Positions 5,611 to 48,793 of a stretch of DNA of 64,000 nt are shown here, one piece after another. The translations under genes were made by a program, and so were the position numbers. The notes beneath the pieces are model-generated. The model did no database searches, had not been told where the DNA came from, and saw only the letters and a list, made by a program, of their open reading frames with translations. The DNA is from Paeniglutamicibacter psychrophenolicus (GTDB taxonomy: Bacteria > Actinomycetota > Actinomycetes > Actinomycetales > Micrococcaceae), in contig NZ_JAGIOE010000001.1 of the NCBI RefSeq assembly GCF_017876575.1, positions 1-64,000 on the forward strand, given 5' to 3'. Each line of letters starts with the position of its first letter. Position 1 is the stretch's first letter.

Positions 5611-5761
5611 AAAATACAGACACAACCAACACGACCCTGGAAAAAGGGTTGCGGGTTGCACCAAGTAAAAAAATCCCGGCAAATTGCCCCAGGCATCCAC
5701 ACGGGGGTGCGGACCCTGAAACCATTCACCAATAAAATAAATAAATTGGTATCAACAAATT

Positions 5762-43558: not shown

Positions 43559-43646
43559 GGATGGTTGTCCGAGCGGCCTAAGGAGCTGGTCTTGAAAACC
43601 AGTGTGCGGTAACCCCGTACCAAGAGTTCAAATCTCTTACCATCCG
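43559..43646 (+). tRNA. tRNA-Ser (anticodon UGA)
   Basis: An 88-nt class II tRNA. Acceptor arms are GGATGGT and ACCATCC with discriminator G. The anticodon stem CTGGT/ACCAG encloses CTTGAAA with anticodon TGA. A long variable arm (TGTGCGGTAACCCCGTACC) and the T arm AGAGTTCAAATCTCT are present. A TATACT -10-like hexamer lies at 43543-43548. Its 3' end (43622-43646) is part of the 26-bp repeat that bounds the integrated element to its right. Confidence 0.97.
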
Positions 43647-43647
43647 C
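43622..43647. repeat. attL, left attachment repeat
   Basis: First copy of the 26-bp repeat, forming the 3' part of tRNA-Ser from the T arm to one base beyond the discriminator. Confidence 0.93.
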
Positions 43648-43655
43648 TCACATAG

Positions 43656-43699
43656 AAAGCCCCTACTTCCTTTTATTTACGAGGAAGTAGGGGCTTTTC
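43656..43699. terminator. terminator after tRNA-Ser, supplied by the element
   Basis: Stem AAAGCCCCTACTTCC with its complement and a T-rich tail. It lies just inside the element and now terminates the tRNA transcript, and the integrase remnant from the other side. Confidence 0.85.
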
Positions 43700-43718
43700 T
43701 TGTTTAAGGCTAGAGGCC

Positions 43719-43739
43719 TTTTGGGCACGTTTTGGGCAC
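43719..43739. promoter_or_regulatory. candidate integrase arm-binding repeats (left)
   Basis: TTTTGGGCAC occurs twice at 43719-43728 and 43730-43739, exactly 11 bp apart. A near copy, ATTTGGGCAC, is at 48670-48679 near the right end. Paired short repeats flanking the core site are typical of integrase arm sites; this is an inference. Confidence 0.45.
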
Positions 43740-43742
43740 AAG

Positions 43743-43928
43743 TCATTTTGAGACAGCGGCATCCAGAGCTATGTCCGCGGCGTCCAAATCGTCATCAAAC
43801 AGCTCTGCATAGACGTCCAGCGTCATTGCCGCCGAGCTGTGACCGAGCATTCGTTGCACCGCTTTCACGTTGGCGCCGGCACTCACGGCAAAGCTTGCGG
43901 CCGAACGCCTAAGGTCATGAGGCGTCAC
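43743..43928 (-). pseudogene. tyrosine recombinase (integrase), C-terminal fragment
   Basis: Only the last about 70 residues of a phage-type tyrosine integrase remain. The second catalytic Arg is in VTPHDLRRSAAS, the His/Trp-equivalent in QRMLGHSSAAMTLDVY, and the nucleophile Tyr in DVYAELFDDDL. Upstream, the same frame stays related for about a dozen codons (VIIDRSAVQAAKVDR) and then meets a TAG near 43977. The N-terminal arm-binding and core-binding domains and the first catalytic Arg are missing within the window's element. It lies next to attL, the usual integrase position. Confidence 0.9.
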
Positions 43929-44101
43929 TCTGTCGACCTTGGCAGCTTGAACGGCCGAGCGATCAATTATGACCCCCTAGACTGCGTCGGGGCGTATAGG
44001 GGCTCAGTCATCTTTGTTGCCACTCGAAATTACTCAAATTCCCCGTGATTTCGGGTCACTATCCGTTACAAGCGTCATGCCATGTCGGTACAATTGATGC
44101 T

Positions 44102-44658
44102 ATGAACACTCGTATATGCCCCGTTTGTCAGGGGTCCATGGCTATGAGGCGTGCTGATGCCCGTTTTTGCTCGACTAAGTGCCGCGTTTCGGCACACCGT
44201 CATCCGTGTTCGATTCCAACTGAATTGGTGAATCTGGATAGGTGGGTGCGCCGGGATGAGAAGAAGCGCCCTTAACGCTTTCGGGAACTTTCGCATCATC
44301 GACAAATCCAGCCACCTGGGCAACCTACGCCGAGGCGAAATGCTCGACTGCCGCCGTTGGTCTCGGGTTCGTTTTGGCCGGCGACGGTATCGGCGTGATC
44401 GACCTGGATCACTGCATCTTGGATGGGAAGGTGTTGCCGTGGGCTGCTGAGATTCTCGCGGCGAACCCTAACACCTTTACTGAGGTTTCCCTGTCCGGCA
44501 GCGGGCTGCACGTCTGGGGCCTGCATGAGGCGGCGAAGGGCAAGCGCGTGCGCGATGGGCGAAACCTCGAAGTCTACTCGCGTGGCCGGTACGTGGCTTT
44601 GGGTGAGCGGTTGCCCGGGACCTCATTTGAGCTACGCCCGCTGGTCATCGACTTCTAG
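44102..44658 (+). pseudogene. frameshifted phage-type primase-polymerase-like protein
   Basis: Two frames together encode one protein. The first (from ATG 44102) reads MNTRICPVCQGSMAMRRAD with a CxxC...CSTKC zinc finger, then LVNLDRWVRRDEKKRP and a stop at 44273-44275. The second frame continues the sense without a break as PLTLSGTFASSTNPATW, then GLGFVLAGDGIGVIDLDHCI and SLSGSGLHVWG to the stop at 44656. One base seems to be missing in the run at about 44269-44273. The DLDH and SGSGLHVWG motifs resemble the prim-pol N-terminal domain of plasmid and phage replication proteins. The helicase half is absent, so the gene is also C-terminally short. Confidence 0.75.
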
Positions 44659-44764
44659 CCAGATCCGGTTCATTTGATCCGGCACCGTACCCATCGTCAT
44701 GTCCGCGTTGTGTCGGTGCGCCGAGATAGCATCGGCATATTTCCCTCCAACCAAAGGATTACTT

Positions 44765-45301
44765 ATGCGTTTCAATGACGTTATGCACATCTTGGCCAAC
44801 AGCACAGCCGAAGATTGGCACTACATTCCGTGCCACGGTGGCAACGGCCCGGCCTATGCAGTTGATTGGAAGGAATCAGAAGGCAACTTCACACCGAACC
44901 CACACCCGCGCCGAGCCACATATTCAGCCGACGTGAACCTGACCATCGCTTGGGGTCTGGAATTGCAGGAGGACGGAGAGTTCGCCTGGCTTGAAGAGGG
45001 CATTCCTTCGTTCATAAAGGGGAAGAAAACGACCGCCGACCTTGAGTGCATCGATGTTTTTTGGGCCGGCGCGCTCATCGCCCGCCGCCACTACTATGCA
45101 GTTGCCAGTGAACATGTTTGGATCCCGGCATTCCAGCATTCCGAAGGGGAACGAGTCATCCTGGAATCTCACGTTCGATTCCTTGAGACAGTGAGTCACA
45201 TCGAAGCCGGAGATCCGATGAACAAGCTCTACACAACGCGATCGGCCCTCGAAAGGATCGGGGTTCGCGTAGATAACGACATAGCACTCCCGCTTTACTA
45301 G
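44765..45301 (+). CDS. hypothetical protein, element cargo
   Basis: A 178-residue soluble protein without a signal peptide or membrane segment. It is aromatic- and His-rich (WHYIPCHGGNGPAYAVDW; VFWAGALIARRHYYAVASEHVWIPAF) and of lower-GC codon use than the chromosome. No family recognised. The ATG at 44765 follows AAAGGA at about 6 nt. It is convergent with the membrane-protein gene at 45411 across a terminator. Function unknown. Confidence 0.7.
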   Translation: MRFNDVMHILANSTAEDWHYIPCHGGNGPAYAVDWKESEGNFTPNPHPRRATYSADVNLTIAWGLELQEDGEFAWLEEGIPSFIKGKKTTADLECIDVFWAGALIARRHYYAVASEHVWIPAFQHSEGERVILESHVRFLETVSHIEAGDPMNKLYTTRSALERIGVRVDNDIALPLY

Positions 45302-45313
45302 GCCCTGCCGACG

Positions 45314-45363
45314 ACAACTGCCCTCAGTAGCTCATCCGAGCCGCTGAGGGCTTTCGCAGTTGT
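45314..45363. terminator. bidirectional terminator inside the element
   Basis: A two-part inverted repeat, ACAACTG/CAGTTGT outside and CCCTCAG/CTGAGGG inside, between convergent genes. Confidence 0.7.
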
Positions 45364-45410
45364 TCCAGAAGGCCGCAACCACCGTCAGCGGAGTGGAGGG
45401 ATGGGCTTAT

Positions 45411-46184
45411 CTAAAAGCAGTATTCGTTGTTTGCTACAGCCTGTTCAACGCCTTCAACATTGCTAGTGAAAGTCTCAGAAATCGACTTCATACCTTGGAT
45501 GCACTGACTCCGTTCTTTTGGTTTCATTTGCCAGTCTCGCAAGAGCTGCATGTAGCCGCTGGCGAACGTTGCACAGTGCTGACGAAGGTTCCAGCGAGCG
45601 AAGCCTGTTATATGTTGCCTCTCCAAGGCCCGTATTAGGTCGATTTCCCCTATGAGGAACGGATTCATCTCTAGTTCCCGTTCGTGATGATGCATTCTCC
45701 AGATGGCGCCCGATAGCTCAATAGCTTTGCACATGTTGTCTATCCCATTTACGTAGATATCTTCTCTTGCTAAGTCGTCTTGTTTTACTTTCTCGGCGTC
45801 CTTTGGTTTCAAGAGCGCTGAAGGATCTTCGCCATCGTAGCCAGGGTAAAACTCAGAGACTCTGGCCGCAGCACCAAGTGCGCGAAGGTAGTCGGCTAGG
45901 GCCGAGATCTCAAGTTCCTTTTGGCGGGCCGCTAAGTCACCTTCGGCCTGGCCTTCCATGGCCTCTAGCGTAGTTCTAGAAGTTGTCCATGCATGGTAGG
46001 CAAAATAGGCAAGAAGAAATGTTCCGATAGCAGTAGCCCATGTTCCCAAGGTGATCGCATCGACACCGACTGGCGGATATCCGTTGATCCAACCGATCCA
46101 GAAGATCGCGTTGACCACCAACAGGACACTGGTAGCCCAGGCCAGTGCTTTCTCGATAGGTGTCGCAGGTCCCCGTTTGCTCAT
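45411..46184 (-). CDS. membrane-anchored hypothetical protein, element cargo
   Basis: A 257-residue protein with two N-terminal transmembrane helices (about residues 14-33 and 44-64) and a cytoplasmic, helical C-terminal domain of about 190 residues. The linker after the helices (TSRTTLEAMEGQAEGDLAARQKELEISALADYLRALGAA) looks coiled-coil. This overall plan, short membrane anchor then coiled coil then a compact domain, matches the divergent neighbour at 46434. The ATG at 46184 is chosen because GGGGG lies about 6 nt upstream. No family recognised. Members of such layout occur in phage and defence contexts, but that role is not shown here. Confidence 0.72.
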   Translation of the reverse strand: MSKRGPATPIEKALAWATSVLLVVNAIFWIGWINGYPPVGVDAITLGTWATAIGTFLLAYFAYHAWTTSRTTLEAMEGQAEGDLAARQKELEISALADYLRALGAAARVSEFYPGYDGEDPSALLKPKDAEKVKQDDLAREDIYVNGIDNMCKAIELSGAIWRMHHHERELEMNPFLIGEIDLIRALERQHITGFARWNLRQHCATFASGYMQLLRDWQMKPKERSQCIQGMKSISETFTSNVEGVEQAVANNEYCF

Positions 46185-46257
46185 CATTTCCCCCAATTAG
46201 TTCAAATCAACCAGTCCATCTTCACATGATCCACGTTCTAGGAGGACGATACGATTT

Positions 46258-46437
46258 GTTCATGCTAGAGCTCATCCCCGACGGTGTCCCTATCCGGCAG
46301 GCCAGCGTCCGCACCAGAACCGGCATAACAACACCCAAACCATCGACGGGTTCTACCGCGTCCAATGGGACGACGGCACCATCACCCACGCAGCACCCGA
46401 CATGATCGAACGCGACCCCAATAGGATTGACGGATGA
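46258..46437 (+). pseudogene. small element protein remnant, possibly frameshifted
   Basis: A frame ending at 46437 reads RHNNTQTIDGFYRVQWDDG then THAAPDMIERDPNRIDG, which looks like a real protein end, and its stop overlaps the ATG of the next gene (ATGA). A good N-terminus, MLELIPDGVPIRQA from ATG 46264, is in a different frame. One or more indels between about 46305 and 46330 would join them. The family is not identified. Confidence 0.4.
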
Positions 46438-47276
46438 TCACCGCCGAGTCTTTCGAATGTGTCCTGCCACCACTGTCAGCCAAAGCAGATTCTCTAATCA
46501 GTTGCACCTACCAATTGGCGAACGCCCCGTCAGGATGGGAAGTTGGCAGCGCTCTAGCCAACTGGGGAATCCTGGCCATTGCAGCGGGCGCACTTTGGGT
46601 ATCCAATAGGCAGCGACAGCAGGCAAACAAGGATATGTCCGACACCCTGGAGCACAGCAAGAAGGCTCATGAGGAACTGCTAGAAGCGAATGCAAGGGCC
46701 TTAGATCTTCAGCTCAAGGTCGCCGAAAAGGTTGCTCAAGATCAGATGGAAGCTGCTTACAAAGCAAATCAGGCTCAGCTTGATGCCGCATACGCCGCGA
46801 CTCAAGCGCAGCTGGACGCTTCGCAGAAGGCAACACAAGCAGATCTCAATGAGCGGAAGAATGCTCGTGAACTCGAAATGACGGCCGAATTCGTGGCAGC
46901 GCTAGATGAAATGCTCATGGCCGCACATATCGACGTGAACGAGGAGGGCCGCGGATTGACCCTCCGGCGAGCAATTACAAATACCTCGGTTGCCTCAGGA
47001 AAGTTCCAGCTGTTCGTAGGTCATTCACAAACCCTCGCTGATCTTGAAGAACAGTTGCAACGGTTACTCGATGGATTCGCACCCGTGAAGCTCGCAGACT
47101 TCAAGTCGCGTCAGTACGATCGGATCTTTAAAATTCATGCCATATTGCGAACCGGGATTGTCGAGTATCAGAAATCCCGAAACTTCCCGCCGATACTCCC
47201 ATTGGTTCTTGGTGCCTTGAAAAGCGGCGACATGGCACTCGTGGATCAAATGCTTTGGATCGACCCAGCCGCGTAG
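46434..47276 (+). CDS. membrane-anchored coiled-coil protein with 11-residue repeats, element cargo
   Basis: A 280-residue protein. It has one transmembrane helix (about residues 41-57, LANWGILAIAAGALWV), a long coiled coil (about 58-150) and a helical C-terminal domain (about 150-280). The coiled coil contains four consecutive 11-residue units: residues 97-107, 108-118, 119-129 and 130-140, for example AYKANQAQLDA and AYAATQAQLDA. Such hendecad repeats form slightly right-handed coiled coils. The gene is divergent from the 45411-46184 gene, with which it shares membrane-plus-coil design. No family recognised, function unknown. Confidence 0.75.
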   Translation: MITAESFECVLPPLSAKADSLISCTYQLANAPSGWEVGSALANWGILAIAAGALWVSNRQRQQANKDMSDTLEHSKKAHEELLEANARALDLQLKVAEKVAQDQMEAAYKANQAQLDAAYAATQAQLDASQKATQADLNERKNARELEMTAEFVAALDEMLMAAHIDVNEEGRGLTLRRAITNTSVASGKFQLFVGHSQTLADLEEQLQRLLDGFAPVKLADFKSRQYDRIFKIHAILRTGIVEYQKSRNFPPILPLVLGALKSGDMALVDQMLWIDPAA

Positions 47277-47288
47277 GCTCGACCAATC

Positions 47289-47315
47289 AAAAGCCCCGGC
47301 TAACCCCGGGGCTTT
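47289..47315. terminator. terminator after the coiled-coil gene
   Basis: Stem AAAAGCCCCGG / CCGGGGCTTTG immediately after the stop at 47276. Confidence 0.8.
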
Positions 47316-47341
47316 GTCATTCCCAAAAACAGGAGGACCAA

Positions 47342-47371
47342 GTGACCATCACCCTGGACCGCCAGCAGTAG
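47342..47371 (+). CDS. nine-codon open frame with strong ribosome binding site
   Basis: AGGAGG at 47331-47336 is placed 5 nt before a GTG that opens VTITLDRQQ and then a TAG. The next base starts a hairpin terminator. It may be a residual gene start left by a deletion, or a leader peptide for the downstream gene. It is too short to judge by coding statistics. Confidence 0.35.
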   Translation: MTITLDRQQ

Positions 47372-47404
47372 GCCCCCAGCAGCTCACACGAGCTGCTGGG
47401 GGTC
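47372..47404 (+). terminator. terminator/attenuator hairpin upstream of the 47435 gene
   Basis: Perfect stem GCCCCCAGCAGCT with AGCTGCTGGGGGTC, located between the nine-codon frame and the next gene. Confidence 0.7.
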
Positions 47405-47434
47405 TGTTCGTCATTTAGGACTAACATTCAATGA

Positions 47435-48274
47435 ATGAGTAAAAAGCGCGAATCGATCGAGGCAGACAGCCCTAGCGAGCAGACGGCAGCAGAAGCGATT
47501 CTGGGCGCCTTCCAGTCTTTTCAGAATTGGGAAGAAACGATCGAGAAGTACCAAACGCCGGCGCGTACTTCCCGGTTCGCTGATGACAATGCGCTCAATA
47601 GACATTTTCCAGTCAATCAATTGGCTTATGAACAACTAATGGTTGCATTCGGATCGCTCCAAAGCCTTGAGCAGATGATCGTGAATGAGAAAGGTGCGAC
47701 GATACAGATCGTGGCACATCCGTATGGTCCCTACGCATTGGTGCGGAATGCTATCGACGCAGCAGCACAGGCTCTGTGGTTGATAGAACCTGAGAATTCC
47801 AAACTTCGGATCAGGCGAAGAATCGAAGCGCAACTGAAAGACATTCACCTATCTAAACAATTCAAGACTGAGATCGATGAGCCATCAAAGAAAACAGAGA
47901 GATGGATCAAGGGCTATACCGAGCGCATGAAGGAAGTCGCCGAAGAGTCCGGCCTAGACACAAGTTCTTTCAAGGACTGGAAACAGCCAACGATGACAAT
48001 GATGCTGGGCAAGCTGCAACATTGGGATCAGATTGCGAGTCTGACTTGGTTGGCGGCGTGGCAACTTTGCAGTGGGCATGCGCATGGGAAGCAGTGGGCA
48101 ACGTTTACGTCGCATGAATTGACGGAAGTTCCTGGTACCGCCGATGAAGTCGGGGCAACATTCCATGTAACCCTTAGCTACAAATCACTAGCTGGTGTCA
48201 TCCTTTCAACGCAAAAGCTCATCCAGGCCACATGCGAGCGGTATAGCGAGCTCTCTATGCCATCTGACGGATAG
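47435..48274 (+). CDS. hypothetical protein, element cargo
   Basis: A 279-residue soluble, helical protein. A central segment (YGPYALVRNAIDAAAQALWLIEPENSKLRIRRRIE) and a later WLAAWQLCSGHAHGKQWATFTSHEL contain the most conserved-looking residues, including a His cluster GHAHGK. This pattern resembles uncharacterised phage/plasmid-borne proteins but no named family was recognised. It is preceded by a hairpin at 47372-47404 and has no obvious partner. Codon use is lower-GC than the flanking chromosome. Confidence 0.72.
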   Translation: MSKKRESIEADSPSEQTAAEAILGAFQSFQNWEETIEKYQTPARTSRFADDNALNRHFPVNQLAYEQLMVAFGSLQSLEQMIVNEKGATIQIVAHPYGPYALVRNAIDAAAQALWLIEPENSKLRIRRRIEAQLKDIHLSKQFKTEIDEPSKKTERWIKGYTERMKEVAEESGLDTSSFKDWKQPTMTMMLGKLQHWDQIASLTWLAAWQLCSGHAHGKQWATFTSHELTEVPGTADEVGATFHVTLSYKSLAGVILSTQKLIQATCERYSELSMPSDG

Positions 48275-48401
48275 CGAAACGTTCCACAGGATTCTTCGCG
48301 ATCGTTCTGGGAAAGTTTTGGGTACACCGTGGGGATGCCTTGTCGCCGGGCTGAAAACGATACGCGCCGATCGCGTCAACGCCAGCAGTAAGCCTTCTCT
48401 T

Positions 48402-48584
48402 TCATTGCGGTTCGGTGGGGAGCGTTTCGAACCAGTCTTGAAGTTCATCAGCACCGATTACTGGCCGGCTGGTTGGGTAGCGGGCTACGAGGTTGCCCGC
48501 CTTGATATTGACGCGGATCGTATCCATGCTTACCCCATAGGTGGCAGCAGCTTCTTGGACGGTGTATGCCTTCTTGGGATCCAT
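48402..48584 (-). CDS. excisionase-like helix-turn-helix protein
   Basis: A 60-residue MerR/excisionase-type DNA-binding protein: AYTVQEAAATYGVSMDTIRVNIKAGNLVARYP is the winged helix-turn-helix, followed by RPVIGADELQDWFETLP. Such proteins (HTH_17) direct excision by the matching integrase or regulate element genes. Its place 180 bp from the right repeat, opposite the integrase remnant, supports the excisionase reading. Confidence 0.85.
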   Translation of the reverse strand: MDPKKAYTVQEAAATYGVSMDTIRVNIKAGNLVARYPTSRPVIGADELQDWFETLPTEPQ

Positions 48585-48760
48585 GCTCGTAACCTACCGA
48601 GTGATGCCTAGGACGTCTAGCAGTCCGATTAGAAGTATCCTGCGTTCACTCAAGCAATTGACGGGCACTATTTGGGCACATCTACAGTGAAACGACGTTA
48701 TCTACAGGCATGTAAAACCCCCGAGAATTCACGGAACAAGCCACTCCACTGGGCATTAAA

Positions 48761-48786
48761 AAGAGTTCAAATCTCTTACCATCCGC
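48761..48786. repeat. attR, right attachment repeat
   Basis: Second copy of the 26-bp tRNA-Ser 3'-end repeat, closing the element. No cloverleaf can be built here, so it is only an attachment scar. The gap 48585-48760 holds the xis promoter region and one arm-site-like repeat at 48670-48679. Confidence 0.93.
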
Positions 48787-48793
48787 GCAGTTC

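Follow-up and report, generated by a model that had tools for sequence, protein, structure and literature searches.

A probably stranded integrative element with unrecognised cargo in tRNA-Ser(UGA) of Paeniglutamicibacter psychrophenolicus

Insertion site, mobility genes and site occupancy

The window analysed here, the first 64,000 nucleotides of contig NZ_JAGIOE010000001.1 (assembly GCF_017876575.1) of Paeniglutamicibacter psychrophenolicus, contains a 5.1-kb element between two direct repeats at a tRNA-Ser(UGA) gene. The element carries remnants of an integrase and of a replication gene, an excisionase-like gene and four main cargo genes, and is very probably an ordinary integrative element that has been stranded by decay and whose cargo belongs to no recognised family. 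Its integration target, the tRNA-Ser(UGA) gene (43559-43647, plus strand), was identified with ARAGORN. The repeat copies, at 43622-43650 and 48761-48789, are identical at 28 of 29 bp and exact over the first 26, giving an attachment (att) core of 26 bp at the left end (attL, 43622-43647; 29 bp with one mismatch, to 43650) and its counterpart at the right end (attR, 48761-48786), both on the plus strand. The left copy overlaps the 3′ end of the tRNA gene, which the element restores; a repeat of which one copy is the 3′ end of a tRNA gene is as expected of a tRNA-targeted genomic island of the tyrosine-integrase type. A chance repeat was ruled out on the basis of the 28 of 29 identical positions at the tRNA 3′ end and of the empty sites found in relatives. 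The guanine-plus-cytosine (GC) content of the element is 0.537, compared with 0.638 in the rest of the window. A strong terminator-like stem-loop (43655-43698, plus strand; 18 pairs with a T tail, including a 16-nt perfect inverted repeat) lies just inside attL.

The C-terminal remnant of a tyrosine integrase (43743-43976, minus strand) matches PF00589 at an expectation value (E) of 2.3e-11 and covers only positions 116-169 of the 172 in the profile. It aligns with residues 296-375 of the approximately 378-residue integrase of a related element in another species of the genus (genome G002), with 76% identity over 71 residues; about four fifths of the window integrase are therefore gone, and the integrase expected beside the att site of such an island is present as a remnant only. 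Two pieces of a primase-polymerase gene follow on the plus strand. The first (44102-44275), which appears zinc-ribbon-like by eye, matches positions 3-55 of the 179 in phrog_8643 (2.6e-11) and the second (44374-44658), in a different frame, matches positions 89-169 (1.4e-22) and has no Pfam match at E 1. As the two pieces lie in different frames and match one profile, the gene is broken. Towards attR lies an excisionase-like helix-turn-helix gene (48402-48584, minus strand; phrog_66, 8.7e-7), which also matches PF12728 at 0.0002, below the Pfam cut-off. A motif scan revealed two tandem TTTTGGGCAC repeats (43719-43740, plus strand) that are possible left arm-type sites of the integrase, and possible right arm-type sites at 48316-48326 (TTTTGGGTACA) and 48670-48680 (ATTTGGGCACA), both on the plus strand. 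The intact related integrase matches Arm-DNA-bind_4 at 1.9e-4, just under the curated cut-off.

To assess occupancy, the element with its flanks served as the query against 15 genomes of the genus, one per species, and the site was then examined in all 14 besides the window's own. An empty site was defined as one att core (at most two mismatches) between the genes that lie upstream and downstream in the window. Such single-copy sites, with both flanking genes, were found in seven of the 14 (G002, G006, G009, G010, G012, G013 and G014), and their downstream gene is 61-91% identical to that of the window where it aligned in one piece. Two further genomes, G005 and G007, retain the left end of the window element as a remnant of about 1.1 kb, together with a second, altered att copy that has two mismatches in G007 and more in G005. 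The remnants lie at tRNA-Ser in two sister species (locus L036 of G007, approximately 1155-2307, and L037 of G005, approximately 1152-2229), and the two loci, including flanks, are 90% identical. The seven empty and two remnant-bearing sites indicate that this tRNA-Ser site is a recurrent target.

A first-pass annotation of the window had described an integrative element in tRNA-Ser with a perfect 26-bp repeat at both ends, lower GC content inside, an integrase remnant beside attL, an excisionase-like gene beside attR and broken mobility and replication genes. The repeat search, the base composition, the PF00589 and phrog_66 matches, the truncated integrase and the split primase-polymerase gene bear out this description. 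It had also proposed a comparison of the tRNA-Ser(UGA) site among relatives, and took the lack of an element-free allele anywhere as grounds for abandoning the idea; element-free alleles exist in 7 of the 14 genomes.

The cargo genes

Cargo gene 1 (44765-45301, plus strand) is an open reading frame for a protein of 178 amino acids, predicted to be a small alpha/beta protein. A start at 44765 is likelier than one at 44699, the first ATG of the frame, because the alignment with relatives begins at 44765. No family was found for it in Pfam, NCBIfam or PHROGs (at E 1e-3) or in PADLOC. Its relatives form a scattered actinobacterial family with the motif DWxxI..C.GGxGP ... IAWG ... DVFWxGxLxxR. In the sample of 197 genomes of the host family only the window's own gene was recovered, the copy in G002 being outside that listing, and relatives occur in five of 394 genomes of the class and three of 337 of the order, the own gene included in both. 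Plasmid records with relatives numbered four when the window protein was the query and eight when a Streptomyces relative was used. Named genomes gave no locus in an earlier scan with the gene 1 protein alone and four in an alignment-based scan (Williamsia, Nocardiopsis, Mycobacterium and Mycolicibacterium); these counts overlap, as some loci were found twice. Among 50,697 phage records no gene 1 relative was found. The window and G002 copies share 74% identity, with differences by codon position of 34/20/76 over 178 codons, a nonsynonymous rate (dN) of 0.155, a synonymous rate (dS) of 1.21 and a dN/dS of approximately 0.13 (Nei-Gojobori method). Gene 1 is therefore strongly constrained across the window and G002 lineages taken together, though not necessarily in the window copy. 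The dN/dS comparison of orthologues proposed in the first-pass annotation thus shows constraint for gene 1, between two different elements, with genes 2-4 outside the measurement.

Cargo gene 2 (45411-46187, minus strand) encodes 258 amino acids with one clear N-terminal hydrophobic segment (residues 14-32). Weak relatives were found in 3 other genomes of the 197; two of these were reproduced by tblastn of the loci and the third was not. Cargo gene 3 (46434-47276, plus strand; 280 amino acids) is a near-orphan, with no relatives in the 196 other genomes of the family and one weak match (0.0022) among 245 other genomes of the class. No segment of its product exceeds the hydropathy threshold. 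The protein contains a long helix- or coiled-coil-like stretch, and 84% of a 70-residue stretch consists of A, E, K, Q, L, R, D or M. Its PADLOC matches were to LeoBC (9.4e-4, over 107 of 601 profile positions) and BnzB (0.3). In our judgement the LeoBC match is one of coiled-coil composition, the stretch being rich in A, E, K, Q, L and R, and assignment of gene 3 to LeoBC was rejected. A literature search on prophage exclusion proteins with coiled coils gave no paper.

A small gene in two frames (46262-46437, plus strand) lies upstream of gene 3 and overlaps it. The 145 bp at 46295-46439 end at the gene 3 start codon and share 72% identity with a G014 region of phage-like appearance, as judged by eye. 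The counterpart there (locus L038, 6891-7072, minus strand) has its N- and C-terminal parts split between frames as in the window, and the gene that follows it encodes a different protein, with a hydrophobic segment, whose best pairwise E against gene 3 is 0.02. The shared upstream stretch and the unlike downstream genes suggest that the downstream gene has been exchanged. The frame split could reflect an ancient lesion common to both loci or programmed frameshifting; there are not enough mismatches, counted by codon position, to choose between the two. On inspection, seven of the eight other matches to the small gene were not relative-like. The C-terminal part is weakly Tudor-like (Pfam, 0.02).

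Cargo gene 4 (47435-48274, plus strand; 279 amino acids) carries, in its family alignment, the motif YxLVR...W...S...HG and is perhaps DUF5677-like. Relatives are present in 26 of the 197 family genomes (its own included), in 17 plasmid records and in one Mycobacterium prophage record, and an alignment of seven members contains 14 invariant residues. The nearest of the plasmid matches suggest a host close to Arthrobacter (Micrococcaceae). One of these seven matches DUF5677 (PF18928) at 0.0064 and gene 4 itself does not match it; no match lay above the cut-off. The single-sequence structural model of gene 4 has a predicted local distance difference test score (pLDDT) of 45 and is unusable. A PDB sequence search with the gene 1 and gene 4 profiles gave no match at E 1. 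Scans of viral contigs revealed no relatives of genes 1-4, and those of phage records none of genes 1-3.

The four cargo frames had been described as intact and as belonging to no recognised family. These four are indeed open, and a fifth, small gene is in two frames, so the cargo may not be wholly intact; the lack of a family stands at E 1e-3 in Pfam, NCBIfam and PHROGs and is qualified by the marginal PADLOC match of gene 3. From their arrangement the cargo genes would be separately transcribed. A single four-gene defence operon is not favoured, as gene 2 runs in the opposite direction to the others, which are spaced apart: the gap between genes 1 and 3 is approximately 1.1 kb and holds gene 2, and that between genes 3 and 4 is 158 bp. 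The interval between genes 3 and 4 contains an inverted repeat of 16 nt (47370-47405). The terminator scan placed no site between cargo genes, with six sites found compared with 5.5 expected.

Related elements and the class of the window element

The related element of G002 is in tRNA-Leu(UAA) (locus L034:5650-15322). It is approximately 9.65 kb in size, bounded by a 21-bp repeat at 5650 and 15302, and encodes an intact integrase, a repressor-like protein, an excisionase-like protein (phrog_66), an AAA-type replication protein and the homologue of cargo gene 1. The next gene matches the PADLOC profiles PD-T4-5 (5.6e-12) and AbiD (0.0026), and Pfam Abi_2 at 8.3e-4, below the cut-off. The window element resembles this element in its integrase family, its phrog_66 gene and its gene 1; the G002 element differs in being at another tRNA, in the intact integrase and regulator, in the AAA-type replication gene and in the PD-T4-5-like gene. 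When the frames of the window element were compared with it by tblastn, only the integrase and gene 1 matched. In G008, too, an integrase of this family lies at tRNA-Leu; it shares 69% identity with the G002 integrase, and further downstream the contig encodes a major head protein. The G008 locus (L035, 8715-17159) encodes an integrase, a regulator, an excisionase, a tail-fibre-like protein, a second integrase and the major head protein; the set spans approximately 8 kb, reaches the contig end and is possibly a capsid-encoding satellite or a compact prophage. The G002 and G008 elements together suggest that the integrase family serves both an element in which no phage structural gene was recognised and a phage-like one. 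The family recurs in the genus at tRNA-Ser and tRNA-Leu with differing cargo.

The window element would derive from a small tyrosine-integrase element with an integrase, an excisionase, a primase-polymerase gene and swappable cargo. From the anatomy of its ends, site-specific recombination would have joined attP to the last 26 bp of tRNA-Ser(UGA), the outcome being a whole tRNA at attL and a second copy of its 3′ end at attR. The N-terminal four fifths or so of the integrase and the frame of the replication gene were lost later. As a result of these two losses the element should be unable to excise or replicate by itself. It has kept its att cores, the possible arm sites and the excisionase-like gene, and a related integrase might therefore mobilise it in trans. 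Against this, its own genome beyond the remnant holds just two matches to the G002 integrase, with 31 and 34% identity, and no close integrase was found elsewhere in that genome. The four cargo genes may be separately acquired accessory genes. As a working guess the gene 1 product would act against competing phages or plasmids; the products of gene 2 and possibly gene 3 may be membrane-anchored helical accessory proteins, and that of gene 4 may be DUF5677-like.

PICI-type phage satellites have an integrase-regulator-primase layout. The window element resembles them in its small size, integrase, excisionase-like gene and primase, here as remnants, although the layout is common to actinomycete integrative and conjugative elements (AICEs); it differs in that no packaging or capsid gene was seen in it and in having no known helper phage. 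The Streptomyces satellites of PMC10690885 are a further comparison for these features. AICEs are defined by a tyrosine integrase, a tRNA target, an excisionase (Xis) and a Prim-Pol-type replication protein (PMC3218068). The window element has a tyrosine integrase, a tRNA target, an Xis-like gene and a Prim-Pol-type gene, the latter broken and recognised by phrog_8643. It differs from AICEs in that no FtsK/SpoIIIE transfer gene was among the proteins scanned, in this element or in that of G002; a deletion could have removed such a gene. A literature search on Arthrobacter integrative elements with prim-pol and excisionase genes gave no paper.

A little less than an even chance is given to descent from a prophage or phage satellite and not from a plasmid-like or conjugative element. 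The G008 integrase at tRNA-Leu with its downstream major head protein gene is consistent with such an origin, as are the 72% identity of the region before gene 3 to the G014 stretch and the fact that one of the two reproduced gene 2 relatives shares its contig with a terminase gene. Against it, neither the window element nor the nine genes scanned in the G002 element include a recognised structural, packaging or lysis gene, and primase-polymerase genes occur in actinomycete conjugative elements too (PMC3218068).

Cargo retention and the neighbours of gene 1 relatives

The first-pass annotation had read the intact cargo beside broken mobility genes as selective retention, perhaps for phage defence. 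Selective retention is not upheld: the GC content at third codon positions (GC3) of the cargo is 54-63%, compared with 82-86% in two flanking host genes, so it has not been adjusted to the host and the intact frames may only mean recent arrival, and the decay of mobility could be explained by as few as two lesions. A recent arrival that is neutral junk, having suffered one deletion and one frame break soon after insertion and keeping its cargo because little time has passed, comes close to being as probable as not. The low GC3 and the few lesions required would both fit this, as would the small gene already in two frames, though G014 has the identical split, and the two sister species that keep just a remnant of about 1.1 kb at the site. 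DNA of this composition also yields long stop-free runs fairly readily: when the element was simulated 300 times with a first-order Markov model, the longest run had a median of 175, a 95% value of 248 and a maximum of 307 codons, so that long open frames are only moderately surprising. The cross-element constraint on gene 1 speaks against neutrality, though not necessarily for the window copy, and chance would not account for four frames of such length within 5 kb, three of which (genes 1, 2 and 4) have relatives, so that these should be real genes.

That the four genes were kept because they protect the host from phages, so that the decay of mobility was tolerated, appears unlikely. The support for defence concerns gene 1. 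Its homologue in G002 adjoins the PD-T4-5- and AbiD-matching gene, and on a Streptomyces albidoflavus plasmid (locus L071, 5181-6543) a Hypoth_Ymh gene (5.9e-27) that also matches PD-Lambda-3_B (3.7e-7) and Aga_HEPN (4.6e-5) ends 64 bp before the gene 1 relative. DNA methyltransferase genes lie within approximately 3 kb of the relative in genome G771 and approximately 1 kb of a partial relative in G671, and gene 1 is under purifying selection between elements. PD-Lambda-3 reportedly comes from the same screen as PD-T4-5. PD-T4-5 itself is plasmid-borne and distantly related to AbiF/D, and mobile elements serve as reservoirs of defence genes (PMC9519451). A relative of PD-T4-5 neighbours the gene 1 homologue in G002; none was recognised in the window element. 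These defence neighbours are raw occurrences, given without a background rate near other accessory genes, and in the remaining contexts, judged by eye only, no defence gene was recognised. The relatives of gene 1 lack a constant partner, and the cargo composition points to recent arrival. For genes 2 and 3 relatives are scarce or absent, and gene 4 is a member of a wider family. The first-pass suggestion of phage defence retains some indirect support for gene 1, from the neighbours of two relatives; for genes 2-4 the sole hint is the marginal LeoBC match of gene 3.

Several observations weigh against the preferred account, of a stranded integrative element whose gene 1 may act against competitors. 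In five genomes (G001, G003, G004, G008 and G011) one att core and the upstream gene are present, but the approximately 1.5 kb fetched shows no downstream gene, and these sites count neither as empty nor as occupied. The motif TTTTGGGYACA (at most one mismatch) has four matches in the window, all within the element and two towards each end, but this count is ordinary (1.29 expected; at least four in 7 of 100 shuffles) and the location alone is telling, and then only suggestive. All four cargo genes are low in GC3, which would be expected of recent arrivals no less than of retained genes. The gene 1 model built from five sequences (pLDDT 66.7, predicted template modelling score 0.64) has no Foldseek match at 0.001 or below, the best E being 0.52 in PDB and 0.078 in BFVD. 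The PADLOC search that the first-pass annotation had suggested for the cargo, which also bears on the defence reading, gave no family for genes 1, 2 and 4 and for gene 3 only the partial LeoBC match and the one to BnzB, and no cargo protein matched the profile of a known defence system over most of its length.

The element itself is routine; its practical use is as a pointer to the integrase family and to the unnamed gene 1 protein family, the latter being the most promising lead. Relatives of gene 1 are often on mobile DNA, and twice they lie right beside genes that match defence profiles. It is a speculative and rather improbable proposal that the gene 1 products form an actinobacterial family not yet described, of small proteins that act alone against phages or plasmids, with genes dispersed on integrative elements, plasmids and prophages and sometimes beside HEPN/Abi genes. 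If true, the family would provide a compact one-gene defence that the profile libraries searched do not contain. Gene 1 and the HEPN gene as a fixed pair were ruled out, as the other relatives examined have different neighbours: the gene finder showed no Hypoth_Ymh gene beside the S. globisporus relative, and in Rhodococcus jostii RHA1 a protein with two hydrophobic segments is encoded 69 bp upstream. Genes for TnsA-like and Mu-type transposition proteins are near the relative on the S. albidoflavus plasmid. On plasmid pRHL2 of R. jostii RHA1 (L112, 5001-5544) the relative is annotated as two overlapping frames and is apparently split, and on a plasmid of Rhodococcus sp. ZPP it is one frame.

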